This document shows, in pieces, positions 1,758 to 16,285 of a DNA stretch of 16,889 nucleotides. This stretch comes from an uncultured Gammaproteobacteria bacterium (GTDB lineage Bacteria > Pseudomonadota > Gammaproteobacteria > Arenicellales > UBA868), in NCBI GenBank assembly GCA_913051905.1, contig CAJXBY010000043.1, positions 1 to 16,889 of the forward strand, in the 5' to 3' direction. The first letter of the stretch is position 1. Every line of letters begins with the position of its first letter. Made by a program: the position numbers and the translations under genes. The notes below the pieces were generated by a model. That model did no database searches. It had not been told where the DNA came from and was given only the letters and a program-made list of their open reading frames with translations.

Positions 1758-2957
1758 ATGGTGAATCGTGCTGCACAGCAGAACACCGTTCTATTGGTGG
1801 GCGGAGGTATCGGCGGACTCGCTGCTGCGCTGGGGCTGGCGCAGGCGGGGTACGAAGTCGATCTCTTTGAACAGGCGACTGATTTAGGGGAGATCGGTGC
1901 CGGGATCCAGCTTGGCCCCAATGCTTTTGCGGCGATGGATGCGCTCGGTTGCGGTCCGAGGGCGCGAGCTCGCGCGGTCTATACCGATGATCTCATCATG
2001 CTGGATGCGCTTGACGGATCGGTCGTCGGGAAGATCCCGGTCGGTACGGCTTTCCGCGAATATTTCGGTAATCCCTATGCGGTGATCCATCGTGCCGATA
2101 TTCATCTGTCGATCTATGAAGAGACACAGGTGCACGATTCGATCCGCGTTCATACCGATGCCCGAATTGTCAGCGCGGATGTGTCTGAGCATGGGGCCAG
2201 CGTCCGGGATCATAACGGGCAGGAATGGAGTGGAGCCGCCGTGGTCGGCTGCGACGGACTGAGATCTGTTGTGCGGGAGGCACTCATCGGTGACTCACAC
2301 GTCGTGTCCGGCCATGTGGTTTATCGTGCAGTCTGTCCCAAGGACGAATTTCCCAAAGACCTGCGCTGGAACGCGGCGGTCATTTGGGTTGGACCGAACT
2401 ACCATATCGTGCATTACCCGCTGCGGGGTGGCGAGGAGTACAACATCGTCATCACGTTTCACAGCCGGGAAAAGGAGGTCTGGAGCGTCCGGGAGGGATC
2501 GCGGGCAGAACTGTTGAGCTACTTTAACGAGATCAGTCCGAAGCCGCGACAGTTACTTGAGAAAGCGAGCGTCTGGCAGCGCTGGGCCACAGCAGATCGG
2601 GAACCGACTGAAAAGTGGGGTCGTGGTCGGGCGACCCTGCTGGGTGATGCGGCACATCCGCCGCTGCAGTACATGGCGCAGGGTGCGTGCATTGCCCTGG
2701 AGGACGCGGTGACCCTGCGTGAAGCATTGAAGAAGAGCGGCGGCGATATCGAAACCGCTTTCCGTCTGTATGAGAAATCCCGTATTCCGCGTACGGCCCG
2801 AGTGCAGTATTCGGCCAGGTTAATGGGGCGCATATACCATGCCTCGGGTGCGGAGCGACTGGTGCGTAACTCGCTGTGGAAAGATCGCAGTCCCGACGAG
2901 TATTACCAGGCCTTGAACTGGCTGTATGGGTGGAAGGTCGAGACTTGCCTGGACTGA
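1758..2957 (+). CDS. 3-hydroxybenzoate 6-hydroxylase-like FAD monooxygenase (gentisate-forming)
   Basis: The ATG at 1758 is preferred because an AGGA box lies five bases upstream (1749-1752). Upstream in-frame starts (TTG 1701, ATG 1731) would run through the candidate operator. The 399-residue product has the size of the family. Motifs are GGGIGG (15-20), the DG motif GCDGLRSVVR (from 164) and GDAAHPPLQYMAQGACIALE (296-315). The sequence DLGEIGAGIQLGPNAF and the NYHIVHYPLRGG stretch are typical of 3-hydroxybenzoate 6-hydroxylases. In the characterised Rhodococcus enzyme a His and a Gln contact the substrate; the His in NYHIVHY (about 216) and the Gln in PPLQY (about 304) are plausible equivalents. 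The expected reaction is 3-hydroxybenzoate + NADH + O2 to gentisate. Gentisate dioxygenase two genes downstream supports this. A salicylate or other hydroxybenzoate specificity cannot be excluded. Confidence 0.85.
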   Translation: MVNRAAQQNTVLLVGGGIGGLAAALGLAQAGYEVDLFEQATDLGEIGAGIQLGPNAFAAMDALGCGPRARARAVYTDDLIMLDALDGSVVGKIPVGTAFREYFGNPYAVIHRADIHLSIYEETQVHDSIRVHTDARIVSADVSEHGASVRDHNGQEWSGAAVVGCDGLRSVVREALIGDSHVVSGHVVYRAVCPKDEFPKDLRWNAAVIWVGPNYHIVHYPLRGGEEYNIVITFHSREKEVWSVREGSRAELLSYFNEISPKPRQLLEKASVWQRWATADREPTEKWGRGRATLLGDAAHPPLQYMAQGACIALEDAVTLREALKKSGGDIETAFRLYEKSRIPRTARVQYSARLMGRIYHASGAERLVRNSLWKDRSPDEYYQALNWLYGWKVETCLD

Positions 2958-3078: not shown

Positions 3079-4830
3079 ATGCTTGAGACGATCAGTTCCG
3101 AAGAACTGGCCCGTGACCCAGGTTACCCAGGGATGCTCCCGGAATATCTGGCGCAAACGGTGTACTACGCGCCATTCAAGAAACTGACCCAATCGGATCT
3201 GACAGGGTTCTGGGTTCTCGAGTACCGCTGGCCGAACGGCTGCACACCCTATGGTCTGATGTTCTGTGAACTGGCTCTGACCTGGGCGATGCAGTATGCC
3301 TCGCACCATTCGCCGTTGCCACCGACCAATGGCTATGACATGCGGGTCGCTGGCACACACCTGTTCGGGTCGGAACTCGACCTGGAAGCCGGGGCCGTGC
3401 TTGAGGCGCGTGATCAACGGCTCGCCCAACGATTACCGGGTTTCATCGAGAATTTCCAGGAGATCTGGAAGCAGGAGATCGATCTGCTGACGGCCGCAAA
3501 CCGGCAGATCGAGTCCTACGATACTTCCGGACGCAGTCCGGCTGAGCTGGCTGAATACCTGGTCTACACCCGGGAACACGTGCGCTGGAGTTGGGAAAGG
3601 CATTTTGAACTCATGTACCTGTTGCTCATTAACCATGCCGGTTTTTACGATCTGTGCACCGAACTCTCGATTCCTCACGCTGACGTCGCGACTTTTCTGC
3701 AGGGCTATGACAGCAGGATCAGCCAGGGCGACCGGGCGCTGTGGAGGATGGTTGAACAGGCCCGTCAAAAGGAACTGACCGGTTGGTTCGCCGGTGCAGA
3801 CGCCGGCAGTGGTCTCTTGGACCGCATGCGGTCGGCTGGCGGTGACGCCAACCGCTGGGTTGAGTCATTTGACGGGTTTCTGAATGAATGGGGTTGGCGT
3901 ACGGAAACCGTGGCCGATCCTTTGTCGCCAAGCTGGATCGAAGATCCCGGCCCTGTTCTGGGTTCCATTGGCTCTATGCTGATGGCAGGAGAGCAGCCTG
4001 ACTTCGATGCGAAACGCAAGGCCGCTGAGGACGAGCGAGAGGCTGCCCTGGAGGCGGTGCGGTCCAGGCTGAGCCGCGCCGAACAACGGGAATTTGACCA
4101 GACTCTGGAGAGCTGCCGTAAGGCTAATTTCCTATGGTGGAATGAAGACCACAACTTCTATATCGACTACCGGTCAGCCATACCGATGCGCAAAGCAGCC
4201 CTGGGTCTCGGTGAATCCCTGGATCTTGCCAATCCAGAAGACATGGTTTTCTGTTTTTACCCGGAGTTGCTCGCTCTGGCCCGTGGTGAGAAAAAATGGA
4301 ACGAGGTAGCCTCGCTGGTGAGCGAGCGCAAGGACTATTACTGGTCATGGCGTGAACGGCGGAACCAGATTCCAAAATTTCTGGGTGTGCCGCCTGAGTC
4401 TCTTAGTGACCCTATTCTCACGGAGCTGGACGGTTTCACGGCTGAATTTCTGGAAACCCTGAAAGTAGAGGGTACGGCGACCACGTTGAAAGGCATGCCA
4501 GCCAGCCAGGGCCGGGCACAGGGGGCAGCACGGGTGCTGCTTGGGGCTGACCGGATACATGACATCCAGCCTGGAGAGATACTTGTCTGTGAAGGGACGA
4601 CGCCGAGCTGGACACCAGCCTTTACCCGGATCGCCGGCTGTCTCACTGATCAGGGCGGTACGCTGTCGCATGCTGCGATTGTCGGACGTGAGTATGGTGT
4701 GCCCTGCGTGGTCGCACTGGGTAATGCCACCGCACGGATCAGGACTGGCGATGTGCTGGAACTCGACGGTGGCACAGGTACGGTCAGAATCGTGACCCGG
4801 GCGAACGAAAACAACACGGTCCCCGACTGA
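3079..4830 (+). CDS. PEP-synthase-type mobile-domain protein with phospho-histidine motif (phenylphosphate synthase alpha-like subunit)
   Basis: This 583-residue protein ends in the swivelling phospho-histidine domain of PEP synthase/PPDK (about 495-575). The core motif is CLTDQGGTLSHAAIVGREYG with His531 as the expected phosphoryl carrier. The approximately 480-residue N-terminal part has no ATP-grasp fold. It carries an amphipathic, charged helix region (about 315-350) followed by LWWNEDHNFYIDY, a stretch typical of the central substrate domain in phenylphosphate synthase subunit 1 and rifampin phosphotransferase. No C-terminal PEP/pyruvate barrel follows, so pyruvate is unlikely to be the acceptor. 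Its catalytic partner should be the ATP-grasp protein at 14715-15782. The start has only a weak SD (GGA at 3067-3069). The stop is eight bases from gentisate dioxygenase, so the two are probably co-translated. Function is inferred: ATP-driven phosphorylation of a hydroxylated, possibly aromatic, acceptor. Confidence 0.75.
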   Translation: MLETISSEELARDPGYPGMLPEYLAQTVYYAPFKKLTQSDLTGFWVLEYRWPNGCTPYGLMFCELALTWAMQYASHHSPLPPTNGYDMRVAGTHLFGSELDLEAGAVLEARDQRLAQRLPGFIENFQEIWKQEIDLLTAANRQIESYDTSGRSPAELAEYLVYTREHVRWSWERHFELMYLLLINHAGFYDLCTELSIPHADVATFLQGYDSRISQGDRALWRMVEQARQKELTGWFAGADAGSGLLDRMRSAGGDANRWVESFDGFLNEWGWRTETVADPLSPSWIEDPGPVLGSIGSMLMAGEQPDFDAKRKAAEDEREAALEAVRSRLSRAEQREFDQTLESCRKANFLWWNEDHNFYIDYRSAIPMRKAALGLGESLDLANPEDMVFCFYPELLALARGEKKWNEVASLVSERKDYYWSWRERRNQIPKFLGVPPESLSDPILTELDGFTAEFLETLKVEGTATTLKGMPASQGRAQGAARVLLGADRIHDIQPGEILVCEGTTPSWTPAFTRIAGCLTDQGGTLSHAAIVGREYGVPCVVALGNATARIRTGDVLELDGGTGTVRIVTRANENNTVPD

Positions 4831-4837
4831 GGATGAC

Positions 4838-5881
4838 ATGATGGACGAACTGCAATCTGCTGCTGAACTCCCGCCGCAATATCTGTCGGCACTGACTTCA
4901 ATCAACCTGCAGCCCCTGTGGCCCAGCCTCCGGGCGCTCGTACCGCATGGAGACCCGACCCGGCGTTCCGTACCGGTTCATTGGCGTTATTCCGAGGTTC
5001 GTGAACTCCTGATGCAGGCCGGGGACCTCACACCGATAGAAAAAGCGGAACGACGGGTGCTGGTTCTGTGTAACCCGGGACTCGGCATCGACAACCTGCA
5101 GGCCACGCCGTCGATCTATGTGGGCCTGCAACTGATTCTTCCGGGTGAGGATGCGCCCAATCACCGTCACTCTCCCAGTGCCATCAGGCTTATCGTGGAG
5201 GGCGAGGGCGGGTTTACAACCGTGGAAGGCGAGCGCCTGCCGATGGAACCCGGTGACCTGATATTGACACCGTCCGGTTTGTGGCACGAACACGGTCACA
5301 CCGGTACTGAGCCAGTCATCTGGCTGGACGCGCTCGACCTGCCGCTGATTTATTATCTGGAGACCTCCCAGGCTGAAGAAGCCCCGCTACAGCATGCACC
5401 CGAACATCCGGATTCGTCACAGACCAAGTTCCGGCGGGCCGGCCTGCTGCCCTATGACCAACTGCACGATCACAATCCCTACCCCATGCTCCGCTATCCC
5501 TGGAAAGAGACTCGGGAGGCATTGACCGAACTCGCGGGTGCCGCTGACCGGGATGCGTTGATCCAGCTGGCTTACATCAATCCAGTCACCGGGGAGGAAT
5601 GCCTGCCGATACTGGGTTTTTCCGCCTTGATGCTGCGCCCCGGTGAGTGTGCTGAACTGGGTCGGCGGACGTGCTCGGCTGTGATCCATGCCGTGGAGGG
5701 GCAGGGCAGCGCCGAGATCGACGGCGTCTCTTTTGACTGGGAGCGGCATGACACACTGGCCGTTCCGCCGCACGCCCCCGGCCTGTTGCAGAACGGTTCC
5801 GGAACCCGCCCGGCGTTTCTATTTGTCGTGGACGATGCCCCTTTGCATCGGAAGTTGCGGATTTACCGCGAGTATGCCTAA
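4838..5881 (+). CDS. gtdA: Gentisate 1,2-dioxygenase (bicupin Fe(II) ring-cleavage enzyme)
   Basis: This 347-residue bicupin cleaves gentisate between C1 and C2 to maleylpyruvate. The first cupin has NHRHSPSAIRLIVEGEG and PSGLWHEHGH. His109, His111 and His150 show the same spacing (2 and 41 residues) as the iron ligands recalled for the E. coli enzyme (119, 121, 160). The LDALDLPLIYYLE stretch after the first cupin is also typical. The second cupin (about 260-335) lacks an equivalent histidine triad, as is usual for this family. Two ATGs are possible, 4838 and 4841; TGAGGA overlapping the previous stop (4828-4833) serves as SD and fits both. It follows the mobile-domain gene directly, implying one transcript. 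Close relatives act on salicylate or 1-hydroxy-2-naphthoate, so exact specificity is less certain than the fold and reaction type. Confidence 0.88.
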   Translation: MMDELQSAAELPPQYLSALTSINLQPLWPSLRALVPHGDPTRRSVPVHWRYSEVRELLMQAGDLTPIEKAERRVLVLCNPGLGIDNLQATPSIYVGLQLILPGEDAPNHRHSPSAIRLIVEGEGGFTTVEGERLPMEPGDLILTPSGLWHEHGHTGTEPVIWLDALDLPLIYYLETSQAEEAPLQHAPEHPDSSQTKFRRAGLLPYDQLHDHNPYPMLRYPWKETREALTELAGAADRDALIQLAYINPVTGEECLPILGFSALMLRPGECAELGRRTCSAVIHAVEGQGSAEIDGVSFDWERHDTLAVPPHAPGLLQNGSGTRPAFLFVVDDAPLHRKLRIYREYA

Positions 5882-5958
5882 GCGCGGACACTTTCTCCTG
5901 AAAATCGACCGCTTCAGATGACTATCGGGTCTCAATGGCCCGCATTCACAGGATTGGG

Positions 5959-6000
5959 TTAGCGGACCGCTGTTTCAGTACCCTATCGGTCCAACGCTAA
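5959..6000. terminator. Possible bulged hairpin between convergent genes
   Basis: TTAGCG-GACCG (5959-5969) pairs with CGGTC-(CAA bulge)-CGCTAA (5987-6000) around a 17-nt loop. It lies in the 115-bp gap between gentisate dioxygenase and the converging sulfotransferase and includes the sulfotransferase stop codon. There is no T-tract on either strand, so it is at best a weak bidirectional terminator or an mRNA 3'-end structure. Confidence 0.3.
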
Positions 6001-6950
6001 GTGGTTCCGAGTTTCTTGCGCAAGGTCAAGTAGTCCGGAATGCCAAGCTGCCGGCCGATTGTCTCCTCCCAGCGCCGGGCAAAAAGGTCCTGGACCGGAG
6101 CGGAGAGTCGATGGCGCTGAGTGTTTGCAAGTGAAACTTTGAGTGTCTCGCCATCAGCTGGCAGGCCGAGGATCGGGTCCCGGTGACGTCGCAGCAGATG
6201 ATCGTCAAACCGGCGGTAGTGTTTGCGCATAAATTCCAGACCGGTATTCTGCTGGGTGATCTCGGATAACTCCGGATCAAGCCCGATCTCGAGCAATGCC
6301 GCGACCTGTTGAATCACCGTCAAGGGATCGGCCAGGAAATCCTCGTAGGTGAGAAACAGCACGTTCGGTTCGCGGCGCCGCGGCCACCAGCTGAGCAGGT
6401 GATCCCAGTAGCGCCCGGCCTTGGTCCCCTCAAGGATCATGCCGGTGGCAAACTCATCCAGAGAGATACTGCCGGCCTCAAAGGCCCAACCCGAGAAGAA
6501 CCGGTAGAACGAATCCGCGACGGCCAGCGGATCCCGGGTCATATGGATGAACCGACCGCTCGATGGGAGTCCCGCTGCGGTCCGGTGGGTCTTGAATACC
6601 CGCGGCCGTGCCGTTTGTTCAGCTTCGGGATCGATGCCGATGTCCCAGGCCGATTCCAGCCAGGGCACGACCGCGGTGATCTCCTCGAAGCTCATGTCTC
6701 CGTGGGTGCGGAGGGTATGGACCATTTGCTGCAGCAGCGTGGTCCCGCATTTAGGGTAGGTTGCGATGAACACATCCGTCGGTCGGGACGCCATGCGGTC
6801 GGCATACCGGTCGCTTTCCGCGCTGCGGAAATAATGCAGGCGTTCCCGCAATTCATCAATCGTCTCTGGACGACGGGCTGGACCCTGCCATCTTTCCAGA
6901 GATGAGTTTTCCAGAACAGAGTCTGTCCCAGGTGTTTTTGGCCGGTTCAT
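5997..6950 (-). CDS. PAPS-dependent sulfotransferase (sulfotransferase 1 family)
   Basis: The 317-residue product carries the 5'-phosphosulfate-binding loop TYPKCGTT (residues 64-71), KTH with His122 as the expected catalytic base, and the 3'-phosphate-binding segment TRDPLAVADSFYRFF (138-152, Arg139 and Ser147). These are the landmarks of cytosolic-type sulfotransferases that move sulfate from PAPS to a hydroxyl or amine. The usual C-terminal RKGxxGDWK is replaced by FMRKHYRRFDDHLL, a divergence seen in bacterial members. Its ATG overlaps the stop of the upstream exporter gene by four bases (ATGA, 6947-6950), so the two are translationally coupled. In this setting a phenolic acceptor is plausible, but the sequence does not tell the substrate. 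Confidence 0.85.
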   Translation of the reverse strand: MNRPKTPGTDSVLENSSLERWQGPARRPETIDELRERLHYFRSAESDRYADRMASRPTDVFIATYPKCGTTLLQQMVHTLRTHGDMSFEEITAVVPWLESAWDIGIDPEAEQTARPRVFKTHRTAAGLPSSGRFIHMTRDPLAVADSFYRFFSGWAFEAGSISLDEFATGMILEGTKAGRYWDHLLSWWPRRREPNVLFLTYEDFLADPLTVIQQVAALLEIGLDPELSEITQQNTGLEFMRKHYRRFDDHLLRRHRDPILGLPADGETLKVSLANTQRHRLSAPVQDLFARRWEETIGRQLGIPDYLTLRKKLGTT

Positions 6951-7702
6951 CCTATGAAGCCCAGTAACAGCAGCCGGAGTCCCAGCACCGTCAGTACTAA
7001 CCGAAACAATTTGGTGAAGAGCCGTTCTGGCAGTCGTTGCAGGATTCGTCGTCCGGCCAGGGTGCCGATAAATCCGCTGGCGATCATAGCCGCCATAACG
7101 GGCAGCCAGGGCAGGAACTGGAAACCCAGGAACCCGAAGGCAATGCCTTTCAGGCCATGCTGGATCGTCATACAGGTCGCGTGTGTGGCGACCAGCTTTT
7201 CACGGCCCAGGTGCTCGGGCGAGAAAAATGCAGAAACCAGCGGACCGGTGCCGCCAACGAAGAGGGTCGCGAAGCTGGTCAGTGCCCCGACCGGCACGAA
7301 CCCGGCGAGCGGTATACTGGAGGGTCTCAGTTTGGGGGCCCAGACAGCGTAAAGCACAAAGAGACCGAGCAGTGCCTGCAGGACCCCGACCGGCAGGGCA
7401 ATGAAGACCTTTGCCGCAAGGACTACGCCGACGATCGAACCCAGGAAAAAATACCCGGCGATCCGCCAGTGGATGTGCGCACGCATCACGGCTGCCCGTC
7501 CGCTGTTGGAGCCCAGCTGGACGATCCCGTGTACCGGCAGGACCACGAGTGGTGGAAGAAACGATGCCATCACGGCCAGCAGGACCACACCACCACCGAT
7601 GCCGACTGCGGCAGTCAGCGCAGAGGTAAAGAAACTCAGAGCCACCAGGCCGCCTGCAGAGACGACGGTGAGGTCGGAAGGGAGGAGTGCATACAGGTCC
7701 AT
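6947..7702 (-). CDS. TauE/SafE-family membrane exporter (sulfite/organosulfur anion type)
   Basis: This is a 251-residue integral membrane protein with about eight hydrophobic segments. It shows the duplicated glycine-rich signatures of the TSUP/TauE-SafE family: AAVGIGGGVVLL near residue 35 and FVGGTGPLVSAFF near 150. Basic loops such as GRRILQRLPERLFTK lie between membrane spans. Family members move sulfite, sulfoacetate or related anions across the inner membrane. It is the first gene of a two-gene unit with the sulfotransferase, overlapping by 4 bp, which suggests a shared sulfur-related role. Start ATG 7702 has no strong SD. It is divergent from metC. Substrate is not determinable from sequence. 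Confidence 0.82.
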   Translation of the reverse strand: MDLYALLPSDLTVVSAGGLVALSFFTSALTAAVGIGGGVVLLAVMASFLPPLVVLPVHGIVQLGSNSGRAAVMRAHIHWRIAGYFFLGSIVGVVLAAKVFIALPVGVLQALLGLFVLYAVWAPKLRPSSIPLAGFVPVGALTSFATLFVGGTGPLVSAFFSPEHLGREKLVATHATCMTIQHGLKGIAFGFLGFQFLPWLPVMAAMIASGFIGTLAGRRILQRLPERLFTKLFRLVLTVLGLRLLLLGFIG

Positions 7703-7839
7703 GTCGTATTCAGTTTACTCTATGCGTACTGCTGGAAAGAGTCCGAAGACGCTCTCTTCGTTCTAGTTCGCCGACAAGGCGTAGAATACTTGCGCCTAGA
7801 CGTCATGTGGAAAACAGCGGAGTCTTACAGGGACAGACC
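7703..7839. promoter_or_regulatory. Divergent intergenic region, tauE-like / metC
   Basis: These 137 bp must contain the promoters of the exporter-sulfotransferase pair and of metC. A TAGAAT hexamer at 7782-7787 is a candidate -10 for metC, but no good TTGACA lies at 17 bp. A loose AAGAG...CTCTT dyad sits near 7737-7759. No MetJ box array was recognised. Confidence 0.35.
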
Positions 7840-9003
7840 ATGAAGGACGAGACAAAACTCGTACACCTCGGAAGGGGTCAGAAAACCTTTGAAGGTACGG
7901 TCAATATGCCCGTATACCGAGCATCGACCATCCTCTCGCCGGATGTTGACAGTTACATTCACCGGTTCGACGGCGAAAAAGCCTTGACGGACATTACCTA
8001 TGGAGCGCGTGGCACGCACAATGCCAGGGCTTTGGCTGAAGCCATCGGGTCGCTCGAAGGCGGGGCGGGTACGGTGGTGACCGCCTCCGGGTTGTCGGCG
8101 ATCACGCTGACACTGGGCGCATTGCTTGACAACGGTGACCACATCCTGCTGACGGACAGTGTTTACGGGCCCACCCGTACTTTTTGTGACAGCGTACTGA
8201 AAAGATACGGCATCACACCGCAGTTTTACGACCCCGGTGTCGGTGCCGGGATTGCAGAGCTGATTCAGCCGAACACCCGGGCGGTGTTCGTGGAAGCGCC
8301 GGGTTCGCTCACCTTTGAAATGCAGGATATCCCGGCGATCACTTCCATCACTAGGGAGCACCAAGTACTCACGGTGATGGATAACACCTGGGCTTCGCCT
8401 CTTTTCTTTCGCCCATTCGAACATGGCGTAGATATCTCGATTCAGGCCGGCACCAAGTACATCGCTGGCCACTCCGACCTGGTGATCGGTACGATTACCT
8501 CTGCATCGGAGTCTGTCCATCGCTCGATCGTCAGTCAGGCACACAATCTGGGTGATGCGCCGGGTCCGGACGACTGTTACTTGGCCCTTCGAGGGTTGCG
8601 TACATTGGCCGTACGACTGGAGCGCCAGCAGGCATCGGCCTTGAAGGTTGCAGAATGGCTCGCGGCCCAGCCGCAGGTGCACCGAGTGCTGTATCCAGCG
8701 CTTGCCGATGATCCCGGCCATGGTATCTGGCAACGGGATTTCAGAGGGGCGTCCAGCTTGTTCGGTCTGGCGCTTCGGTCAGTGGATGAAGACGCAGTCA
8801 AGCGCTGCATCGATTCATTGGCCTACTTCCAGATCGGTTCCTCGTGGGGTGGCTACGAGAGCCTGATCGCATTCAACCATATGCCGGTGGCGCGGGATGT
8901 CGTGTCCTGGACCGAAAAACCGTTCCTCCTGCGTCTGCACATCGGTCTGGAGGACCCGGACGATCTGATCGACGATTTATCCCAGGCCTTGGGCCGGTTG
9001 TAA
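7840..9003 (+). CDS. metC: Cystathionine beta-lyase (PLP, Cys/Met metabolism family)
   Basis: The ATG at 7840 is chosen over an upstream in-frame start at 7687 because AGGGA lies seven bases upstream and homology begins at once with MKDETKLVHLGR. The 387-residue product is a fold-type I PLP enzyme. GxG-type PLP phosphate contacts appear in VTASGLSAI, the ESPGS-like EAPGSLTFEMQDIPAI and DNTWASPLFFRP segments are present, and the Schiff-base lysine is Lys206 in AGTKYIAGHSD. This pattern is that of proteobacterial MetC, which splits cystathionine to homocysteine, pyruvate and ammonia. A C-S lyase acting on other thioethers or cysteine conjugates is possible. It stands alone on its strand between minus-strand genes, but its product homocysteine is the methyl acceptor of the enzyme type encoded at 10016-11143. 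Confidence 0.88.
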   Translation: MKDETKLVHLGRGQKTFEGTVNMPVYRASTILSPDVDSYIHRFDGEKALTDITYGARGTHNARALAEAIGSLEGGAGTVVTASGLSAITLTLGALLDNGDHILLTDSVYGPTRTFCDSVLKRYGITPQFYDPGVGAGIAELIQPNTRAVFVEAPGSLTFEMQDIPAITSITREHQVLTVMDNTWASPLFFRPFEHGVDISIQAGTKYIAGHSDLVIGTITSASESVHRSIVSQAHNLGDAPGPDDCYLALRGLRTLAVRLERQQASALKVAEWLAAQPQVHRVLYPALADDPGHGIWQRDFRGASSLFGLALRSVDEDAVKRCIDSLAYFQIGSSWGGYESLIAFNHMPVARDVVSWTEKPFLLRLHIGLEDPDDLIDDLSQALGRL

Positions 9004-9025
9004 ATCAAGAGCTGTCAGGGCAGCC

Positions 9026-9883
9026 TCATCCCGTTGTTTCCGGTTGCAGGACAAAATCGGAATCGACTTTCCAGAAAGGGCCGTCAAATCCACAGCGCTG
9101 AATCTCGTCCGGGTCTTCGATCTGGTTGAAGGTCCGGATCAGGCTCTCGCGAACGGCGAATACAGCGTCGTCTTCGAGGTGCGGATCGCCTTCGACAAAT
9201 ATGTGGGTCGTCAGTTTGCGGTATCCCGCAGCACTGAGCATGAAATGAATGTGGGCCGGTCGCCAGGCGTTTCGATTCATCTGGCGCAGCATGTCACCGA
9301 CCGGGCCGTCTGTAGGCACCTCGTACGATACGGGTTTAACCGTTTTGAACCAGTAGCGACCATCGTCGCCGGTTGTGAAGATCCCCCGGTTGAGTTCACC
9401 GGTGCCTGTTCTTTGTACATCGTAAAATCCGTCGCCGGCCGTCTGCCAGACGTCGATTCTCGCGCCTGATATCGGGTTGCCCGAAAGATCCAAGATCCGG
9501 CCTGACACCAGTGTCGGTTCGCCGCTACCCGGTAGGGTGTCACCCATCGCCATGTCCGGTGCTGCGGCATGGAACGGGCCGAGCACCGTGGCTTCTGTCG
9601 CGTTGCCTTCGGTCCGGTTGTTGATACTTTCCAGCAGCATGGAAATGCCAAGCGTATCGGACAGCAAAATGAACTCCTGGCGTTTGTCGTCTGAATTCTG
9701 ACCGCACGCAGTCAGAAACTGGATAGTGCGGAACCACTCGTCCATGGTCGGCTCAACATCCCGAACAATTCCGTGCAGATGCCTGATAACTGAAGATATG
9801 ACCTGGAGAAATCGAGGATCTTTGCTTTGTGCCATGCGCTCGATGACCGCATCGGTCGCAACGGCTTCGTTAAAGTTTCGCAT
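9026..9883 (-). CDS. Intradiol ring-cleavage dioxygenase, hydroxyquinol 1,2-dioxygenase type
   Basis: This 285-residue non-heme Fe(III) dioxygenase has an N-terminal helical dimerisation/lipid-binding domain (1-100) and a beta-sandwich catalytic domain. The iron ligands are visible: Tyr154 in DGFYDVQ, Tyr187 in KPVSYEVPTDGPVG, His211 and His213 in RPAHIHF. The spacing matches that recalled for Nocardioides hydroxyquinol 1,2-dioxygenase (164, 197, 221, 223). The GFYDVQ motif in place of the catechol-enzyme GNYSxFD points to hydroxyquinol or substituted catechol substrates, giving maleylacetate. AAGGAGG (9891-9897) seven bases before the ATG is the best SD in the window and suggests high translation. 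It lies 132 bp downstream of the methionine-synthase-like gene on the same strand and converges on metC 22 bp away. No maleylacetate reductase is in the window. Confidence 0.87.
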   Translation of the reverse strand: MRNFNEAVATDAVIERMAQSKDPRFLQVISSVIRHLHGIVRDVEPTMDEWFRTIQFLTACGQNSDDKRQEFILLSDTLGISMLLESINNRTEGNATEATVLGPFHAAAPDMAMGDTLPGSGEPTLVSGRILDLSGNPISGARIDVWQTAGDGFYDVQRTGTGELNRGIFTTGDDGRYWFKTVKPVSYEVPTDGPVGDMLRQMNRNAWRPAHIHFMLSAAGYRKLTTHIFVEGDPHLEDDAVFAVRESLIRTFNQIEDPDEIQRCGFDGPFWKVDSDFVLQPETTG

Positions 9884-10015
9884 TGGTGGCCCTCCTTGAC
9901 ATCGTTTTGATTGTGCCGGTCGATTCTAGATCAATCTCACCGTCAAAGACGGTCGGTACCCTGGGTAACATCACAGCTGGGCCTGAATTCGCCGTTGCCG
10001 GTGCGCGCAATCAGA

Positions 10016-11143
10016 TCAGATGCCACCCCAGATGAGCTCGGCGGTGTTTACCACGAGTTCGAGTTTTCGTTTCTGTTCGTCTTCTGTCAGGGTGTTGCCT
10101 TCCTCAGTGGAGGCGAATCCGCACTGGGGCGCAATTCCCAGCTGGTCAAGGTCGACAAATTTCGAGGCTTCATCGAATTTGCGGCCGAGGGCATCGGGTT
10201 CTTCCAGTTCTCCCGACTTGGTCGTAACGAAACCTGCCATCACTCTCTGTTGACCTTTGGACAACAGGCGCAGGGGAGCCAAGCCGCCCGCACGTTGGGT
10301 GTCGTACTCCAGGAAGAAAACATCTATTCCGGTCTGGTTGAATACGGTATCAGCTACCGGGTCATAGGCGCCCTGTGCCATCCAGGTCGACTGAAAGTTT
10401 CCGCGACAAAGGTGCATGGCAATGGTCATGTCGTCTGGTCGGTCCTTGATCGCGTCGTGCATCATCTGCGCGTACTGGGCAACCAGCCAGTCGGGATCCT
10501 GACCCAGGGTTTTCTTCTCTTCACGGATTTTGGCGTCACAGAGGTAGGCAAAGAAGATGTCGTCCATCTGCAGATACCGACAGCCTGCGGCATAAAAAGC
10601 TTTGACTGCTTTCGCATAGGTTGAGGTGATATCTGCGAACAGTACCTCAGGATCGGAGTATTCGGCAGGCAGAATGTCTGCCGCAGCAGTCCGAAAATGA
10701 CAGCAACTTGGCCCCGGAATTGATATCTTGGGCTGAACTTCGGCGACCGATGCCAGGTACTTGAAGTGTGAAAGCATGGGATGATCGTCGGGAAAATCCA
10801 GTTTACCGGCAATCGTCGGGAAAATAGGTCGAAGGACAGCTCCCGAGAACTTAAGTCCCTGCTCACGCTCGACCAGCTCAAAACCACTCAAGTGCCCCAT
10901 GAAGTCGTAGTGCCAGAATGAACGACGGTACTCTCCGTCCGTCACCGCCCTGAGACCGGCTGCCTGTTGCATGACGACGGCTTGGCGAATGGCTTCGTCT
11001 TCGATCTTTGCAAGGGACGCAGAGTCCATGCTGCCGTCTTCTAGGCAGGCTTTGCGGGCCTCTTTGACCACCTGCGGCCTCAACAGGCTGCCGACATGAT
11101 CGGCTCTGAATAGGGGTTTCTGGTTCTGCAATCGAGAGTGCAC
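10016..11143 (-). CDS. Cobalamin-independent methionine synthase (MetE C-terminal domain)-like methyltransferase
   Basis: This is a single-barrel protein resembling the C-terminal half of MetE. It starts KPLFRADHVGSLLRPQ and has TDGEYRR, QMDD and the full zinc site. In numbering from the GTG at 11143 the ligands are His244 and Cys246 (HLCRGN), Glu279 (FFLEYD) and Cys341 (PQCGFAS). An in-frame extension up to a GTG at 11263 adds 40 residues with no family resemblance, so 11143 is preferred, though neither start has a good SD. MetE-type proteins transfer a methyl group to a zinc-bound thiol, classically homocysteine. Short homologues of this type use varied methyl donors, and related proteins handle epoxide-CoM chemistry. 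Placed before an intradiol dioxygenase and near metC, it could accept methyl groups released from a methoxylated or methylated substrate. That role is inference. Confidence 0.75.
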   Translation of the reverse strand: MHSRLQNQKPLFRADHVGSLLRPQVVKEARKACLEDGSMDSASLAKIEDEAIRQAVVMQQAAGLRAVTDGEYRRSFWHYDFMGHLSGFELVEREQGLKFSGAVLRPIFPTIAGKLDFPDDHPMLSHFKYLASVAEVQPKISIPGPSCCHFRTAAADILPAEYSDPEVLFADITSTYAKAVKAFYAAGCRYLQMDDIFFAYLCDAKIREEKKTLGQDPDWLVAQYAQMMHDAIKDRPDDMTIAMHLCRGNFQSTWMAQGAYDPVADTVFNQTGIDVFFLEYDTQRAGGLAPLRLLSKGQQRVMAGFVTTKSGELEEPDALGRKFDEASKFVDLDQLGIAPQCGFASTEEGNTLTEDEQKRKLELVVNTAELIWGGI

Positions 11144-11412
11144 TTGGGCTTGCAGCAGTGAACTGGCATTAAACGTTACCCGGTGGCTGGCGGTCAACTG
11201 GCTGCAGGACGGGATCAAATGAACCGGCAGCGTCAAATGGATCAGTTTGGATAAAAGACACACCGCGCGGTTCCACGAGGGAGTGGTGGGTTGTCTACCG
11301 TCTGAATAACCCGTTTAGAATGTGCCTTCATTGACCAACTGCCGTATCCGTCAGGGTGAACCCATGAAGGGCTCACCAAACTGTGCGCCAGGAATAGATC
11401 CGGAAGACCCGT
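11144..11412. promoter_or_regulatory. Divergent region upstream of the TRAP transporter
   Basis: These 269 bp lie between the methionine-synthase-like gene and the TRAP permease. A possible sigma-70 promoter towards the transporter is TTGTCT (11291-11296) with TAGAAT (11316-11321), spacer 19, or TTTAGA at spacer 17. An imperfect dyad follows at 11355-11377 and an SD, GGAAG at 11401-11405, precedes ATG 11413. The left 120 bp could alternatively encode an N-terminal extension of the minus-strand gene. Confidence 0.35.
11355..11377. repeat. Imperfect inverted repeat in the TRAP leader, candidate operator or RNA hairpin
   Basis: GGTGAACCC (11355-11363) and GGGCTCACC (11369-11377) pair at eight of nine positions around ATGAA. 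It lies downstream of the possible promoter and 36 bp before the permease start, so it could act as an operator or a leader hairpin. Confidence 0.35.
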
Positions 11413-13305
11413 ATGAACAGCAGACTGTCAGGGCGGATGATGCAACAGGTGGCAGGTGGTATTGGACTGCTTTTCTCCTGTTTCATCATCTACTCGATCA
11501 TTATTGCTCTGATAGACGAGGCCGATCTGCGGTTTATCGCCGTTGCTGTAGGGTTTGTGGTCGCTCTGACGGGGCATCCGCTAGCAGAGAGGATCAAAGC
11601 CGATCAGTGGCGATGGGTCGGGTGGGTCATCGACGTTTTCCTGGTCGCCGCGTTCTGTTACTCAGCCTGGTGGTTTTTCGAAGTGAAGGAGGAGTTGTGG
11701 ACCGGGTTCTATATTGGAACGCCAGCAAATATATCCGCTGGCGCACTAGGTCTTGTCGGCTTGCTCGAGGCAACCCGTCGAGTCTGGGGCTGGTCGTTGG
11801 TTATTCTCGCTGTATTTTTCGTCTCCTTTGGTTTTGCAGGCCCACATCTTCCCGGAATGCTTCAGCATTTCGGAATGGACCTCAGTAATTTTATGCAGAT
11901 CGCGTGGTACTCCTTTGACGGGGTCTTTGGCCGTGTCACCGGACTGGTTTTCAATACTGTTCTGGTTTTTCTGATCCTGGGTGCAATGCTGAGTCAGACC
12001 GGCGCCGGAGACAGTCTTATCAGAATATCCACGGCATTGACGGCTCGAATTCGGGGTGGGGCGGCTCATGCGGCCATTGTCGCCAGCGCGTTGTTCGGCA
12101 TGATGAGCGGATCCGTCGCTGCGAACATCGCTGGAACGGGTGTATTCACCATCCCCATGATCAAGAAACAGGGGTTTTCAAATAACTTTGCCGGTGCAGT
12201 CGAAGCCTCCGCCTCCTCTGGCGGTCAGTTGACACCTCCGATCATGGCTGCCGCAGTGTTTGTGATGGCCGACTTGCTGGGCGAACCCTACCTGCTGCTG
12301 ATCGCTGCAGCGGCTCTGCCGGCGCTTTTCAAATACATCAGCCTGTTTGCCCAGGTGTATGGGGAAGCGCTACGGATGGGCGACGAATCCGTCAGCACTG
12401 AAGAGATACCGGCCCTTGGCCGGCGTGACTGGCTCAATGCGCTGCTGTTTGTCTTACCGCTGACTGCACTAATGGCCGCTTTTCTGTTGGGCTATTCCCC
12501 TTCTATGGCAGGGTTCATCGGATTGATGATGGCGTTCGCGATGGGACTTGTACTCAGTCCGGACTTCAGGCGACAACCCATGAAGATCGCCAAGGCCTTT
12601 TCGTCGGGAGGCACTTCAGCGGCGAATATCATGGTTGCGGTCGCAACCATTGGCATCGTCCTCGGGGTCGTCAATGAGACAGGCATCGCAATCCGTTTTG
12701 CCATCGCAATTTCTTCGTTTGGAGAAAGTTATCTGATCGTTGCTCTGTTGCTGGCAATGTTGGGTGCACTGATACTTGGTATGGGATTGCCGACGCTGCC
12801 CGCGTATCTCATCATAGCGATAATGATTGCCCCAGCCATTATCAAGGCCGGTGTCGATCCGATTGCAGCACATATGTTTGTACTGTATTACGCGGTTTAT
12901 TCCTCGATTGTGCCGCCGATTGCATACGGTTGTTACGTTGCCGCACCCATCGCGGGTGGCTATCCAATGGCAACATCATTGGTTGCGCTTCGTCTATCAG
13001 TGATCGGACTGTTGGTTCCTTATGTTTTTGTTTATTCGCCATCACTGTTGTTGATCGTTGACGGATTCACATGGAGCGAATTGGCCGGAACAGTGGTTCG
13101 ATTGACTATGGCTATATGGATGTTTGCGGTGTCTTTTGCCGGTGTTGATCCTGTCACGGGACGTCTTTCGATGTCTCACCGATTTGTCCGGTTAATTCTT
13201 GGTGTAGGTGCTCTATGGCCCGTCGCCATGATCTGGATTCCCGCTGTAATGTTGGCAATTCTTGTCACCTTGTTTTCCCGTATGCGCCGAGTACGATCGA
13301 ATTGA
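11413..13305 (+). CDS. TRAP transporter fused permease (DctQ-DctM type)
   Basis: This 630-residue membrane protein fuses a small DctQ-like N-terminal part (about 1-170, four membrane spans) to a large DctM-like permease (about 175-620). Family signatures include GMMSGSVAANIAGTG, EASASSGGQLTPPIMAAAVF, GMGLPTLPAYLIIAIMIAP and SSIVPPIAYGCYVAAPIAGG. Such fused subunits pair with TAXI-type periplasmic binding proteins, and one follows at 13523. The complex would use an ion gradient to import an organic acid across the inner membrane. GGAAG seven bases upstream supports ATG 11413. The location inside a catabolic cluster suggests the imported acid is the aromatic substrate or a precursor, but TAXI systems also carry glutamate and dicarboxylates, so the ligand is open. 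Confidence 0.92.
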   Translation: MNSRLSGRMMQQVAGGIGLLFSCFIIYSIIIALIDEADLRFIAVAVGFVVALTGHPLAERIKADQWRWVGWVIDVFLVAAFCYSAWWFFEVKEELWTGFYIGTPANISAGALGLVGLLEATRRVWGWSLVILAVFFVSFGFAGPHLPGMLQHFGMDLSNFMQIAWYSFDGVFGRVTGLVFNTVLVFLILGAMLSQTGAGDSLIRISTALTARIRGGAAHAAIVASALFGMMSGSVAANIAGTGVFTIPMIKKQGFSNNFAGAVEASASSGGQLTPPIMAAAVFVMADLLGEPYLLLIAAAALPALFKYISLFAQVYGEALRMGDESVSTEEIPALGRRDWLNALLFVLPLTALMAAFLLGYSPSMAGFIGLMMAFAMGLVLSPDFRRQPMKIAKAFSSGGTSAANIMVAVATIGIVLGVVNETGIAIRFAIAISSFGESYLIVALLLAMLGALILGMGLPTLPAYLIIAIMIAPAIIKAGVDPIAAHMFVLYYAVYSSIVPPIAYGCYVAAPIAGGYPMATSLVALRLSVIGLLVPYVFVYSPSLLLIVDGFTWSELAGTVVRLTMAIWMFAVSFAGVDPVTGRLSMSHRFVRLILGVGALWPVAMIWIPAVMLAILVTLFSRMRRVRSN

Positions 13306-13522
13306 TCTAAAAAAATAGACCGTGCTACGGCACTCGGTACCCGTGACCCAATGGCGAATGCACAGAATAATTAACCGATGGTCAGTCGCTTTCGGAGCAA
13401 TCCGTTGACTAATTGACTGCGAGATTCTCTTCTGCGACTATGAACGCGCACTGGGCTTTACTGAGCCCAGGCTTTTCGTTCATTGCATAATTTAAAAACA
13501 GACATAGAACAGAGGATGGAAA
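13306..13522. promoter_or_regulatory. Structured spacer between TRAP permease and binding protein
   Basis: These 217 bp carry no plausible gene. They hold a nested hairpin at 13440-13483 (listed separately), a small bulged hairpin near 13319-13338 and a CATAAT hexamer (13486-13491) that might be a -10 for separate transcription of the binding-protein gene; no good -35 was found for it. GAGG at 13512-13515 is the SD for the next gene. Confidence 0.4.
13440..13483 (+). repeat. Nested inverted repeat / RNA hairpin upstream of the binding-protein gene
   Basis: The outer arms ATGAACG (13440-13446) and CGTTCAT (13477-13483) and the inner arms CTGGGCT (13451-13457) and AGCCCAG (13464-13470) are perfect complements. 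The loop is TTACTG and the internal loop is asymmetric (4 and 6 nt). It ends 39 bp before the binding-protein ATG. It could stabilise the downstream mRNA, act as a weak attenuator or be an operator. Confidence 0.5.
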
Positions 13523-14524
13523 ATGAAATTTACTAAGCTCCTGAGTACTTTTATGGGTGCCATAGCTTTTGTTATTGCATCTAGCGCCCAAGCTGAACTC
13601 TATAGAGTGACATCAATAGCGCCGGGCATGTCGCCCTTTGTGGTCAATACCGCCATCGCCAAAGTTGTTGGAAAGCATGTCCCTGGCGTCGACATGCAGG
13701 TTCGAGCCACGGGGGCCGCAACCCGGCATGTCGTTGAGGCGGCCCAAGGCAAAGTCGACTTTTTCTTTAATTCTGGAACCATCAACTGGTTGATGGTCAA
13801 GAACCTCGGGCCCTACAAGAAAATGGAAAATGCGCCGGAGCTCGAAAAAAATCTGGGCATGATTTTCAACTACGAAATTGGTCCGTACCACTACATCACC
13901 CGTGCCGACAGCGGAATTGAAAAACTCGAGGATATTGCGGGTAGAAAGGTATTCGCCGGTCCTCCAGGCGGCGCCGCCAAACGGGTCTGCCTGGGCAATA
14001 TCAAGCTGACAACGGGTCTGGAGGGTGGTAAAGACTTCGAAGCAGTCGATTTCGGTTTTGATGCCGCTATTCAGGCCTTTCAGGATGACAAGATTGATGT
14101 GATTGTTCTATCGACCAACTTTCCCAGTTCTTCCGTTAGTCAGTTTGCGCTCACCAAGAAGATTCGACTGCTGGATATCGATACCGACAAGATCTCGTCG
14201 ACGTGGAAATCCTTCATGAGTGCAACCGTGGTCGAGATACCACCGGATGCCTATGGCGATAATCAGGTCAACACCAGTTCAGTGTCTACCCATGGGGCTT
14301 TGGTTAACTTCTCTGCCCGCATGGACCTGGACGAGGAAGTGGTCTATCAGGTGACCAAAGCAATCTGGGAAAATGTTGAGGAATTACACGAAGCTGCGGC
14401 CTGGATGAAGGACACGGTGTCGCTGGATAAAGCCCTTGATTTCATTCCAAGCCGTCTCCACCCCGGAGCGGAAAGGTATTACAGGGAAATCGGTATGACG
14501 ATTCCAGAGCCGACAACCTATTAG
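13523..14524 (+). CDS. TAXI-family TRAP transporter periplasmic solute-binding protein
   Basis: This 333-residue protein begins with a Sec signal peptide (basic MKFTK, hydrophobic core, cleavage after SAQA at residue 24). The mature part has the TAXI fold: SIAPGMSPFVVNTAIAKVVG, the ligand-shell stretch RATGAATRHVVEAAQGKVDF, and IAGRKVFAGPPGGAAKR at about 150-165. It should capture the substrate in the periplasm and hand it to the fused permease encoded just upstream. SD GAGG sits seven bases before the ATG. The strong terminator at 14554-14589 ends the unit. The 217-bp structured gap to the permease may let this subunit be made in excess, as binding proteins usually are. Ligand identity cannot be read from sequence. 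Confidence 0.92.
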   Translation: MKFTKLLSTFMGAIAFVIASSAQAELYRVTSIAPGMSPFVVNTAIAKVVGKHVPGVDMQVRATGAATRHVVEAAQGKVDFFFNSGTINWLMVKNLGPYKKMENAPELEKNLGMIFNYEIGPYHYITRADSGIEKLEDIAGRKVFAGPPGGAAKRVCLGNIKLTTGLEGGKDFEAVDFGFDAAIQAFQDDKIDVIVLSTNFPSSSVSQFALTKKIRLLDIDTDKISSTWKSFMSATVVEIPPDAYGDNQVNTSSVSTHGALVNFSARMDLDEEVVYQVTKAIWENVEELHEAAAWMKDTVSLDKALDFIPSRLHPGAERYYREIGMTIPEPTTY

Positions 14525-14553
14525 ACGACTACAGAATAATCAGTCAAACGTGG

Positions 14554-14589
14554 ACCTTCCGGGCCTTATGGCCCGGAAGGTGTTTTTTT
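14554..14589 (+). terminator. Strong Rho-independent terminator after the TRAP operon
   Basis: A perfect 12-bp stem, ACCTTCCGGGCC (14554-14565) with GGCCCGGAAGGT (14570-14581), encloses a TTAT loop. It is followed after one G by seven T residues (14583-14589). The stop of the binding-protein gene is 29 bp upstream. There is no matching A-tract for the opposite strand, so it serves the plus-strand operon. Confidence 0.95.
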
Positions 14590-14714
14590 GAGGTCTTGGT
14601 CTACTGCAAGGCAAAGTCTTCTCCTTGATTAACTTCCTTCCGAATCGGGCAGGTCACTGCTGCGGGAGTACAGAGTTCGTGTTCACCGGGTGCCTGTAAT
14701 CAGCTAAGACCTTT

Positions 14715-15782
14715 TTACCTTGGTTTTCGTCGCCACCTCGCGGCCGCGCGAACCGGATGGGATGCGGATGTATCGCCAGTGCCGCTCCTCAGTGACGTGA
14801 CCGGTCGCAGCTGTACAAAGATCGGCACATTCTCTTTCGACAGTACCCATTCCGTGTCGACAGGCTGGGCAGTCCGGCGTTCGAGTTCGTGTACGGTCTC
14901 AGCGATCCCCAAAACCTCGTCGCGCGTCAGACAGGCCTCGGACCTCAGCCCGGAAGGCGTCTCGATCTCCTGAATAGACTGACCTTGCGGGTCGAGCTGC
15001 GAATGAATCTCTTTGGAGCCGATTGCATAGTCCAGAATCCTGTAATCTTCCTTGTCGACCATGATCCGGTCAGGGACGGTCAGCCCCTGGACAACAGCCT
15101 CACCGTACCCCCAGCAGGCTTCGATGACGATCCGGTCGCGTTTGCCGGTGACCGGGTCGGCTGAGAACGCCACGCCGGCGCAGCGTGCCGAGACCATCGG
15201 CATCACGATCACGGCCATTGGAGAGGTCACGAACGACCGTTTCTTCTGTCGACGGTAGCGTAGTGCCCGCTCTGAAAAAAGCGACGCCCAGACGGCTTGT
15301 ACCGCATCAATCAGCGCATCGGGACCGGTGACGTTCAAGAGCGAGTCATACTGGCCAGCGAAGCTGTTATCGGCGCTGTCTTCTCCCGTGGCCGAGCTGC
15401 GTACGGCGACAGGTAACGTAGGTTCGCCGCTTAGAGCACACAGCCACCGGTAGGCATCAGCAATGAGTTGGACTGTGGCAGGTTCAATATCCACCGCTCG
15501 AATGGCTGCCTGGCATTGCCGACTCATTTGTGCGAGATGGTTGGTATCGTCTTCTGACCAGTCTGATTCTCGTTGCCTCAGCCAGGCTTCAAGCCCTTGG
15601 CTCTTCAAACAAGTCTCGAAAACTCGCGTGCTAATGCAGAAGGCCTCAGGGACTTTCGTTCTCCAGCCACGAAGCTCAGCGAGGCGTGTCATCTTGGGTC
15701 CGACAGTTGAAGGATCCGCTGCGTCCGGCTCATCCAGACGAACAATCAGGGGGCCGTTTCGGCTCGACTGCGGTCGGGTCAC
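14715..15782 (-). CDS. Free-standing PEP/pyruvate-binding ATP-grasp domain protein (phenylphosphate synthase beta-like subunit)
   Basis: The 355-residue product matches only the N-terminal nucleotide-binding part of PEP synthase. Motifs in order: VGPKMTRLAEL (27-37; family consensus VGGK with its ATP lysine), VAVRSSATGEDS (125-136), FSADPVTG (206-213), GYGEAVVQG (225-233), DTEWVLS (309-315) and QLRPVT (324-329). It then stops, with no phospho-His domain and no PEP barrel. The missing His domain is found in the 3079-4830 protein. Start GTG 15782 is chosen because it forms a GTGA overlap with the stop of the MarR gene; the frame is open further upstream but there it only overlaps MarR coding sequence. 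Expected role: bind ATP and load the mobile histidine with phosphate. A VGGK-to-VGPK change is the one oddity. Confidence 0.8.
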   Translation of the reverse strand: MTRPQSSRNGPLIVRLDEPDAADPSTVGPKMTRLAELRGWRTKVPEAFCISTRVFETCLKSQGLEAWLRQRESDWSEDDTNHLAQMSRQCQAAIRAVDIEPATVQLIADAYRWLCALSGEPTLPVAVRSSATGEDSADNSFAGQYDSLLNVTGPDALIDAVQAVWASLFSERALRYRRQKKRSFVTSPMAVIVMPMVSARCAGVAFSADPVTGKRDRIVIEACWGYGEAVVQGLTVPDRIMVDKEDYRILDYAIGSKEIHSQLDPQGQSIQEIETPSGLRSEACLTRDEVLGIAETVHELERRTAQPVDTEWVLSKENVPIFVQLRPVTSLRSGTGDTSASHPVRAAARWRRKPR

Positions 15783-16285
15783 CGGTGTTGGTCGAGGGTC
15801 TGCACGAGATCGTCGAGCAGCAGCTGTAGCTCTTGTAGACGGTCTCTGCCGAACCATTCGGCGATTTCCCGGTAGCGGGTATCGGACCAGATTGCAGCTT
15901 CTGCGACCATAGCCTGACCGGCTGGGGTCGGTGAGATCATTGTCTTGCGCAGATCGCCACGGTCTGATCGTCGGCGTATCAGATGACGCTTCTCAAGCGA
16001 CTGCATGATCCGAGACAGGCTGGGCATACTGACGAAGATCGATTTGGAAAGCTCTCCAGCGGTCATCGAGCCAGCTGATGTCACCATTCGCAGAACGCGC
16101 CATTGCTGTTCGGTCACATTGTATTGGCGGAAAATGGGCTGGAATTGATTGACTGCGGCCTGCCTGGCCCGAAGCAGCCTGATGGGCAGGGTATGAGAGA
16201 AGTCATTCAGACCGTGTGAGTGGGCGGTGGATTTCTTCGGTTTTTCGGTCACTGATACAGGGTCGGAGTTATTCATCGACCACAT
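15779..16285 (-). CDS. MarR-family transcriptional regulator, HpaR-like
   Basis: This 168-residue winged-helix protein has the opening LPIRLLRARQAAVNQFQPIF and TEQQWRVLRMV typical of HpaR, the repressor of homoprotocatechuate degradation. The recognition region is GELSKSIFVSMPSLSRIMQS and the wing RRRSDRGDLRKTMISPTPAG, with an alpha-helical dimerisation tail. HpaR-type proteins release DNA on binding a phenolic acid. ATG 16285 or ATG 16276 are both possible; neither has a clear SD, and both lie inside the end of the FAH gene. Its stop shares GTGA with the ATP-grasp gene. Being sandwiched in that operon suggests it senses a pathway intermediate. Targets may include the divergent regions at 1577-1757 and 11144-11412, which is inference. 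Confidence 0.88.
   Translation of the reverse strand: MWSMNNSDPVSVTEKPKKSTAHSHGLNDFSHTLPIRLLRARQAAVNQFQPIFRQYNVTEQQWRVLRMVTSAGSMTAGELSKSIFVSMPSLSRIMQSLEKRHLIRRRSDRGDLRKTMISPTPAGQAMVAEAAIWSDTRYREIAEWFGRDRLQELQLLLDDLVQTLDQHR

Follow-up and report, generated by a model that had tools for sequence, protein, structure and literature searches.

Two-component dikinases that act on phenolic compounds have been described from aerobic as well as anaerobic bacteria; PMC12167813 names HpeHI and CreHI as aerobic and PpsAB as anaerobic enzymes of this kind. HpeHI is the dikinase for 4-hydroxyacetophenone and acetovanillone in Rhodococcus rhodochrous GD02, which works aerobically (PMC12167813, PMC9618137), and the Hpe pathway includes a phosphatase, HpeD, whose nearest characterised homologue is NagD (PMC9618137). 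CreHI is the 4-cresol kinase of Corynebacterium glutamicum (cited in PMC12167813), and PMC13101465 covers AcvAB together with MarK of Novosphingobium aromaticivorans, a kinase that likewise opens acetovanillone catabolism but is single-component. Here we describe two genes on a contig of 16,889 nucleotides from an uncultured gammaproteobacterium (CAJXBY010000043.1; this whole stretch is called the window), one for a protein with a mobile phosphohistidine domain (the swivel protein) and one for a stand-alone ATP-grasp protein. They probably encode a further two-component dikinase, with which a phenol would be phosphorylated, modified at a methyl or methoxy group, dephosphorylated by an HAD-family phosphatase and passed on to aerobic ring cleavage. 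According to the original prediction, an oxygen-dependent route through a phosphorylated aromatic intermediate was not known to be a described one. Such an intermediate is already known, because HpeHI and CreHI are aerobic (PMC12167813), and the Hpe (PMC9618137) and Acv (PMC13101465) pathways are further cases.

In their domains the two proteins complement each other. The sole Pfam domain of the swivel protein is the PEP-utilisers mobile domain (residues 496-567) and that of the other protein is the PPDK_N ATP-grasp, while Pfam found no ATP-grasp in the swivel protein and, as had been stated in the original prediction, the C-terminal PEP/pyruvate barrel in neither. Two-component small-molecule dikinases are recognised by just this arrangement, in which one protein brings the ATP-grasp, another the swivel, and the barrel is absent. 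The swivel is preceded by a mostly helical substrate domain (about residues 10-460) that resembles rifampin phosphotransferase (RPH) by fold, and T523, G526, G527 and H531 of the window protein fit T/SxxGGxxxH, the swivel motif of two-component dikinases with its catalytic histidine (PMC12167813). This histidine is invariant in 21/21 swivel rows, the threonine of the motif being present in only 5/21. The ATP-grasp protein matches the HpeI crystal structure 9GOJ (E 3e-33), the motifs AVRSSA, DxEW and QxRP are kept in 14 aligned rows, and the protein is homologous to the ATP-grasp of RPH. RPH had been named in the original prediction as an enzyme having the same parts fused; the substrate-binding and histidine domains match by fold and the ATP-grasps are homologous. 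RPH differs in being one fused chain and in having an antibiotic as substrate.

For comparison with the known enzymes, three reference loci were taken from plasmids and assigned by gene context. An Azoarcus cluster contains a CBS subunit and phenylphosphate carboxylase (ppcBDAG), a cluster of Rhodococcus oxybenzonivorans contains a P450, a ferredoxin, an FAD oxidoreductase, an HD-domain protein and an aldehyde dehydrogenase and is presumably Cre-type, and a Rhizobium leguminosarum cluster with biotin carboxylase and HAD genes can be read as Hpe-type from its gene context. The swivel proteins of these loci share 44-46% identity with each other and 25-27% with the window protein, which in the same comparison shares 43-81% with its own relatives. 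All 237 plasmid records matching the swivel protein were under 60% identity, the best 40 of the 237 lying at 24-33% and including the three reference loci, and a relative was encoded in none of the 11 pattern-matching stretches of viral contigs. In a midpoint-rooted maximum likelihood tree of 35 chosen swivel rows (14/24 close hits, 6/9 distant unfused, 6/15 fused and 9 locus proteins; the fragment from genome G003 was excluded) the window clade (20 rows, 100/99) was sister to the three references and two more rows (5 rows, 100/100), the two clades joining at 100/99. The exact place of the fused rows is unsure, because they form long branches. The tree puts the window clade beside the PpsA/CreH/HpeH-like clade and not within it, and the window protein is thus the same kind of enzyme, placed apart from the clade that contains the known members.

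With HpeHI the window pair shares the division into an ATP-grasp and a substrate/swivel protein, the catalytic-histidine motif, the RPH-like substrate fold, aerobic catabolism and, in the Hpe pathway, the presence of a phosphatase (HpeD); it differs in that the swivel protein has about 25% identity to the HpeH-like R. leguminosarum protein (not HpeH itself), that the window has no biotin carboxylase and that the ring-cleavage routes are others. CreHI is likewise an aerobic two-component kinase accompanied by an oxygenase and a probable phosphohydrolase, but the Cre-like R. oxybenzonivorans cluster (27% identity) has P450, ferredoxin, reductase and HD-domain genes where the relatives of the window have Rieske or MetE-like and HAD genes. 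Among the matches listed from the open-licence literature, no paper dealt with this clade or with a Rieske or MetE-like partner of a dikinase.

The relatives come from two sources, namely three loci from one species-genome scan and three more genomes from surveys by group, in which alignment A1 was used at E 1e-90 and, in part of them, no more than the top 3 or 5 candidates of each genome were scored. Together they make six distinct genomes with the swivel protein (G001, G002, G003, G876, G1301 and G1422). The swivel family is rare, and the following counts include the genomes G001, G002, G003 and G876 on which the surveys were centred: 1/385 genomes in the class and 1/248 in the family of G002, 1/399 in the order and 1/10 in the genus of G003, 2/274 in the class and 2/109 in the order of G001, and 2/36 in the family of G876. 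All six genomes with the swivel protein also encode a stand-alone relative of the window ATP-grasp (6/6), and at a threshold of E 1e-60 each has only this one. In G002, G003, G876 and G1301 (4/6) its gene directly adjoins the swivel gene and runs in the same direction; in G1422 the two are 5.2 kb apart and oppositely oriented; and in G001 the ATP-grasp gene is on a short separate contig, again with MarR and FAH genes. As a control, an ATP-grasp at E 1e-60 or better was found in the order of G001 only in the 2/109 genomes having the swivel protein (next-best match 1.8e-44), and in the family of G876, with the G1301 ATP-grasp as query, matches at E 1e-100 or better occurred only in the 2/36 with the swivel protein (next best 4.0e-59, within a 927-aa frame). 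Lack of co-occurrence elsewhere, or a second ATP-grasp partner beside the swivel gene in relatives, would have counted against the original prediction. Neither was seen: the genes do co-occur, and the adjacent ATP-grasp in relatives is of the same family as that of the window. Both results support the two proteins as partners, each supplying one half of a predicted ATP-driven phosphotransferase.

Some observations on single genes of the pair can be added. A 369-aa stand-alone ATP-grasp (G1417:C14:102413-103348, E 1.8e-44), perhaps half of another dikinase, is encoded by a genome in which no swivel protein of the clade reaches E 1e-90. The G001 swivel gene (L001:10001-11665) is without about 30 residues ahead of the catalytic motif; because the G1422 swivel protein, 89% identical to it, has an unbroken frame across the whole model, the gap may be an assembly fault. 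In two relatives the swivel gene overlaps at its end with a gene for a protein of 167-171 aa that has no Pfam match (L034:15786-16301 and L001:11662-12165).

Three other explanations deserve weighing. One is that the swivel protein uses another ATP-grasp, encoded elsewhere in the genome, and that the ATP-grasp of the window serves a homoprotocatechuate operon instead of acting with it. This could be argued from the separate operons of the two genes in the window and in G1422 and from the identity between the two genomes, which is 82% for the swivel but only 54% for the ATP-grasp. Faster divergence of the ATP-grasp is seen also between the window and G001 (52 vs 81% for the swivel) and, what speaks against this explanation, between G876 and G1301 (73 vs 87%), where the genes are adjacent. 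With a related ATP-grasp next to the swivel gene in 4/6 relatives, the only one of its genome at E 1e-60, and with the co-occurrence controls of 2/109 and 2/36, we regard such a separation as quite improbable. Still less credible is an anaerobic-type phenylphosphate synthase with carboxylation of the product to hydroxybenzoate. As the original prediction pointed out, this enzyme too is divided into a subunit of about 40 kDa and one of about 70 kDa, and the subunits and their domains are homologous, but PpsAB(C) is anaerobic and has a CBS subunit and a phenylphosphate carboxylase, and the window protein is 27% identical to PpsA of the Azoarcus ppcBDAG and CBS cluster. The carboxylase and the CBS domain are present in this Azoarcus control, and Pfam detected neither among the 14 window proteins scanned; none was noticed in the open reading frame (ORF) lists of the relatives, in which no scan was aimed at them, and there are oxygenases all round. 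The window pair was accordingly not identified as an anaerobic phenylphosphate synthase.

The weightiest of the three, though unlikely, is a two-component dikinase for a non-phenolic small molecule, comparable to RPH and its antibiotic, in which case the aromatic neighbours would be incidental. The fold match is indeed to RPH, and the neighbours vary strongly among the relatives (aminotransferases, sulfotransferase, transporters). On the other hand, the clade is sister to the aryl dikinases and not to the fused RPH-like rows, even if these are long branches, and ring-cleavage genes lie near the pair in the window and in 4/6 relatives. A phenolic substrate is suggested by this sister position and these neighbours, and the kinase step by homology, motif and pairing.

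What surrounds the pair in relatives points to the steps that may follow the kinase. New here is that one HAD family (36-46% identity between lineages) is found near the pair in 6/6 relatives, in G002 about 8 kb away, and a Rieske oxygenase or MetE-like protein accompanies the clade in 5/6; it is from this company that phosphorylation, modification or demethylation, and dephosphorylation are suggested. A Rieske oxygenase gene stands beside the dikinase together with the HAD gene in G001, G003 and G1422. The C-terminal half of the G003 protein is VanA_C, and its closest relative among solved chains is dicamba O-demethylase (2.3e-46), while those of G001 and G1422, which share 94% identity, represent a different type, the G1422 one being closest to carnitine monooxygenase. 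G876 and G1301 have a MetE-like gene between the ATP-grasp and HAD genes, followed by catechol 2,3-dioxygenase (388.3 and 387.7 bits, cut-off 320.2) and phenol hydroxylase genes. A Rhodoferax metagenome-assembled genome has an operon of the kinase pair, Rieske, HAD and reductase genes. Ring-cleavage genes passed their cut-offs in the fetched DNA of G1301, G876, G1422 and G002 (4/6), in G002 as homogentisate dioxygenase, with fumarylacetoacetase likewise above its cut-off. G001, G1422 and G002 have in common a class-III aminotransferase, the one that overlaps the ATP-grasp gene in G002, and, close to the kinase, a set of tripartite tricarboxylate transporter genes. In G001 an APH-family phosphotransferase gene adjoins a class-III aminotransferase-like gene (L001:12189-14492; 27% to the one scanned), an arrangement that resembles the pair of amino-alcohol kinase and phospholyase. 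Because the ORF lists retain only the longer frame where two overlap, some true genes are missing from them (TauE and the G002 HAD, for example); the key comparisons were repeated by tblastn on the DNA.

Several findings weigh against this reading. The kinase genes of the window lie 10 kb apart in separate transcription units, the 14 window proteins scanned by Pfam include none with an HAD or Rieske domain, and tblastn placed none of six query proteins from relatives (four HAD, two Rieske) on the window. The first motif of the HAD proteins reads D-F-G where a classic HAD phosphatase has a second aspartate, and because those scanned passed only the general HAD-IA model among the NCBIfam models matched, they can be called no more than putative phosphatases. 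The MetE-like proteins of the window and of G876/G1301 belong to different subfamilies: a single subfamily was considered and dropped, as there was no BLASTP match at 1e-8 and tblastn gave 30% over 145 aa (E 2e-6). In G002 a class-III aminotransferase overlaps the ATP-grasp gene, and neither the Rieske nor the MetE-like queries found a match in the fetched parts of its contig. Neither on the 9.9-kb contig of G003 nor in the fetched G001 DNA was a ring-cleavage gene noticed. Finally, the activity is predicted from sequence and the substrate is a guess.

A dikinase opening phenol catabolism nevertheless seems to us the probable function, and it could proceed as follows. The ATP-grasp subunit would bind ATP and transfer its beta-phosphoryl group to the swivel at His531, with release of AMP and Pi; the swivel would then turn to the helical substrate domain and phosphorylate the phenolic hydroxyl, so that the phosphate would serve as a temporary anionic handle on the phenol. 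In relatives a partner enzyme, a Rieske oxygenase or perhaps the MetE-like protein, would remove or oxidise a methyl or methoxy group, after which the HAD phosphatase would free the phenol, and the product would enter aerobic ring cleavage by gentisate in the window and by homoprotocatechuate, homogentisate or catechol meta-cleavage in relatives. Catalysis, the phenolic nature of the substrate and the order of the later steps are predictions, and the modification and phosphatase steps are proposed from the gene order of relatives only. A more specific version, to which we give tentative and rather limited credence, is phosphate-assisted O-demethylation, in which phosphorylated phenols without a carboxylate (such as guaiacol or other methoxyphenols) would be demethylated by a Rieske oxygenase of the VanA/DdmC type, or by a MetE-like protein that needs no corrinoid, before the HAD protein removes the phosphate. 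The MetE-like protein would here pass the methyl group from the aryl phosphate to homocysteine, and in the window and G1422 cystathionine beta-lyase would supply the homocysteine from which the MetE-like protein makes methionine.

In the window itself (Table 1) the two halves lie in different surroundings. The original prediction had each of them in an operon with a gentisate-pathway gene, which stands for the swivel gene, preceded at 121 bp by the 3-hydroxybenzoate hydroxylase gene and followed at 7 bp by the cupin gene, whose best solved relative is the gentisate 1,2-dioxygenase 2d40 (243 bits). It does not stand for the ATP-grasp gene, which forms a compact unit with MarR and FAH genes (the MarR stop overlaps the GTG start of the ATP-grasp gene, and MarR also overlaps FAH). 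Its operon belongs in all likelihood with homoprotocatechuate genes, because MarR passes the HpaR cut-off and because in G1422 HpaE (774.1 bits, cut-off 638.35) and HpaD (483, cut-off 315.95) follow beyond FAH; on the same grounds FAH and MarR were rejected as a fumarylpyruvate hydrolase and a regulator of the gentisate pathway. The best NCBIfam match of the window FAH protein is TIGR02303 HpaG-C (149.8 bits, below the cut-off of 276.4), and the G1422 genes beyond FAH include a DapA/HpaI-like one that passed the DapA model and stayed below the cut-off of the HpaI model (293.1, cut-off 396.7). Nor were the gentisate genes of the window seen in the DNA fetched around the pair in relatives: 3-hydroxybenzoate hydroxylase, the gentisate-dioxygenase-like protein, the intradiol dioxygenase and both transporter proteins had no tblastn match at 1e-5 in 15 loci of the six relatives.

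Table 1. Predicted genes of the window, with the two probable dikinase subunits first
Feature	Position	Strand	Details
Swivel subunit, HpeH/CreH/PpsA-like, 583 aa, catalytic His531	3079..4830	+	substrate-binding and phosphohistidine domains
Stand-alone ATP-grasp, HpeI/CreI/PpsB-like, 355 aa	14715..15782	-	GTG start; PF01326, 286 bits
3-Hydroxybenzoate 6-monooxygenase	1758..2957	+	NF006021, 632.7 bits, cut-off 459
Gentisate 1,2-dioxygenase-like cupin	4838..5881	+	TIGR02272, 289.4 bits, below cut-off 442.1
MarR-family regulator, HpaR type	15779..16285	-	TIGR02337 HpaR, 126.9 bits, cut-off 121.2
FAH-family protein, HpaG-like, runs off window	16269..16889	-	PF01557; TIGR02303 HpaG-C
MetE-like protein	10016..11263	-	PF01717; NF005085, 464.4 bits, cut-off 313
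Sulfotransferase	5997..6950	-	PF00685; shared with G001 and G1422
TauE/SafE family exporter	6947..7702	-	PF01925; shared with G001 and G1422
Cystathionine beta-lyase-like	7840..9003	+	TIGR01324, 439.8 bits, cut-off 365.9; shared with G001 and G1422
Intradiol catechol-type dioxygenase	9026-9883	-	best TIGR02439, 163.5 of 392
FAD monooxygenase, single-domain	437-1576	-	NF006101, 351 bits, below cut-off 1078
TRAP-type permease (DctM) and NMT1_3 binding protein	11413-14524		adjoin ATP-grasp gene

Most of the window gene order is retained in G1422, where the swivel gene is followed by sulfotransferase (-), TauE (-), cystathionine beta-lyase (+), MetE-like (-), ATP-grasp (-), MarR (-) and FAH (-) genes. 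Between the two kinase genes of the window sits the block 5997-11263, which is kept in G1422 at 63-84% identity (sulfotransferase 63%, TauE 74%, lyase 76%, MetE-like 84%), and MarR (75%) and FAH (90%) are shared as well; identities to G001 are 65% for the sulfotransferase, 75% for TauE and 66% for the lyase. A methyl-transfer step is possible for the MetE-like protein of the window. Specific to the window in comparison with G1422 are the gentisate genes flanking the swivel gene, the intradiol dioxygenase, which fell below the cut-off for all five NCBIfam models matched, and the TRAP-type transporter, whose NMT1_3 binding protein we take to be TAXI-like. The FAD monooxygenase resembles the N-terminal half of salicylyl-CoA 5-hydroxylase and is a possible second feeder of gentisate. 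Two frames open upstream of the starts given, that of 3-hydroxybenzoate 6-monooxygenase with TTG at 1701 (ATG at 1758) and that of the lyase at 7687 (the ATG at 7840 fits the family). No tRNA or Rfam match was found in the window.

The reason for which bacteria begin phenol catabolism with a phosphorylation is called unclear in PMC12167813, where scavenging of the compound and its trapping in the cell are proposed. Among the relatives in this clade the HAD protein is the constant neighbour, and what varies is the middle enzyme and the route of ring cleavage, which suggests that the phosphate may function, instead or additionally, as a general removable handle. Compact operons in which this could be tested are offered by the Rhodoferax gene set and by G876 and G1301 (kinase pair, MetE-like, HAD and catechol 2,3-dioxygenase genes), and the clade possibly holds new demethylases for lignin-derived methoxyphenols.

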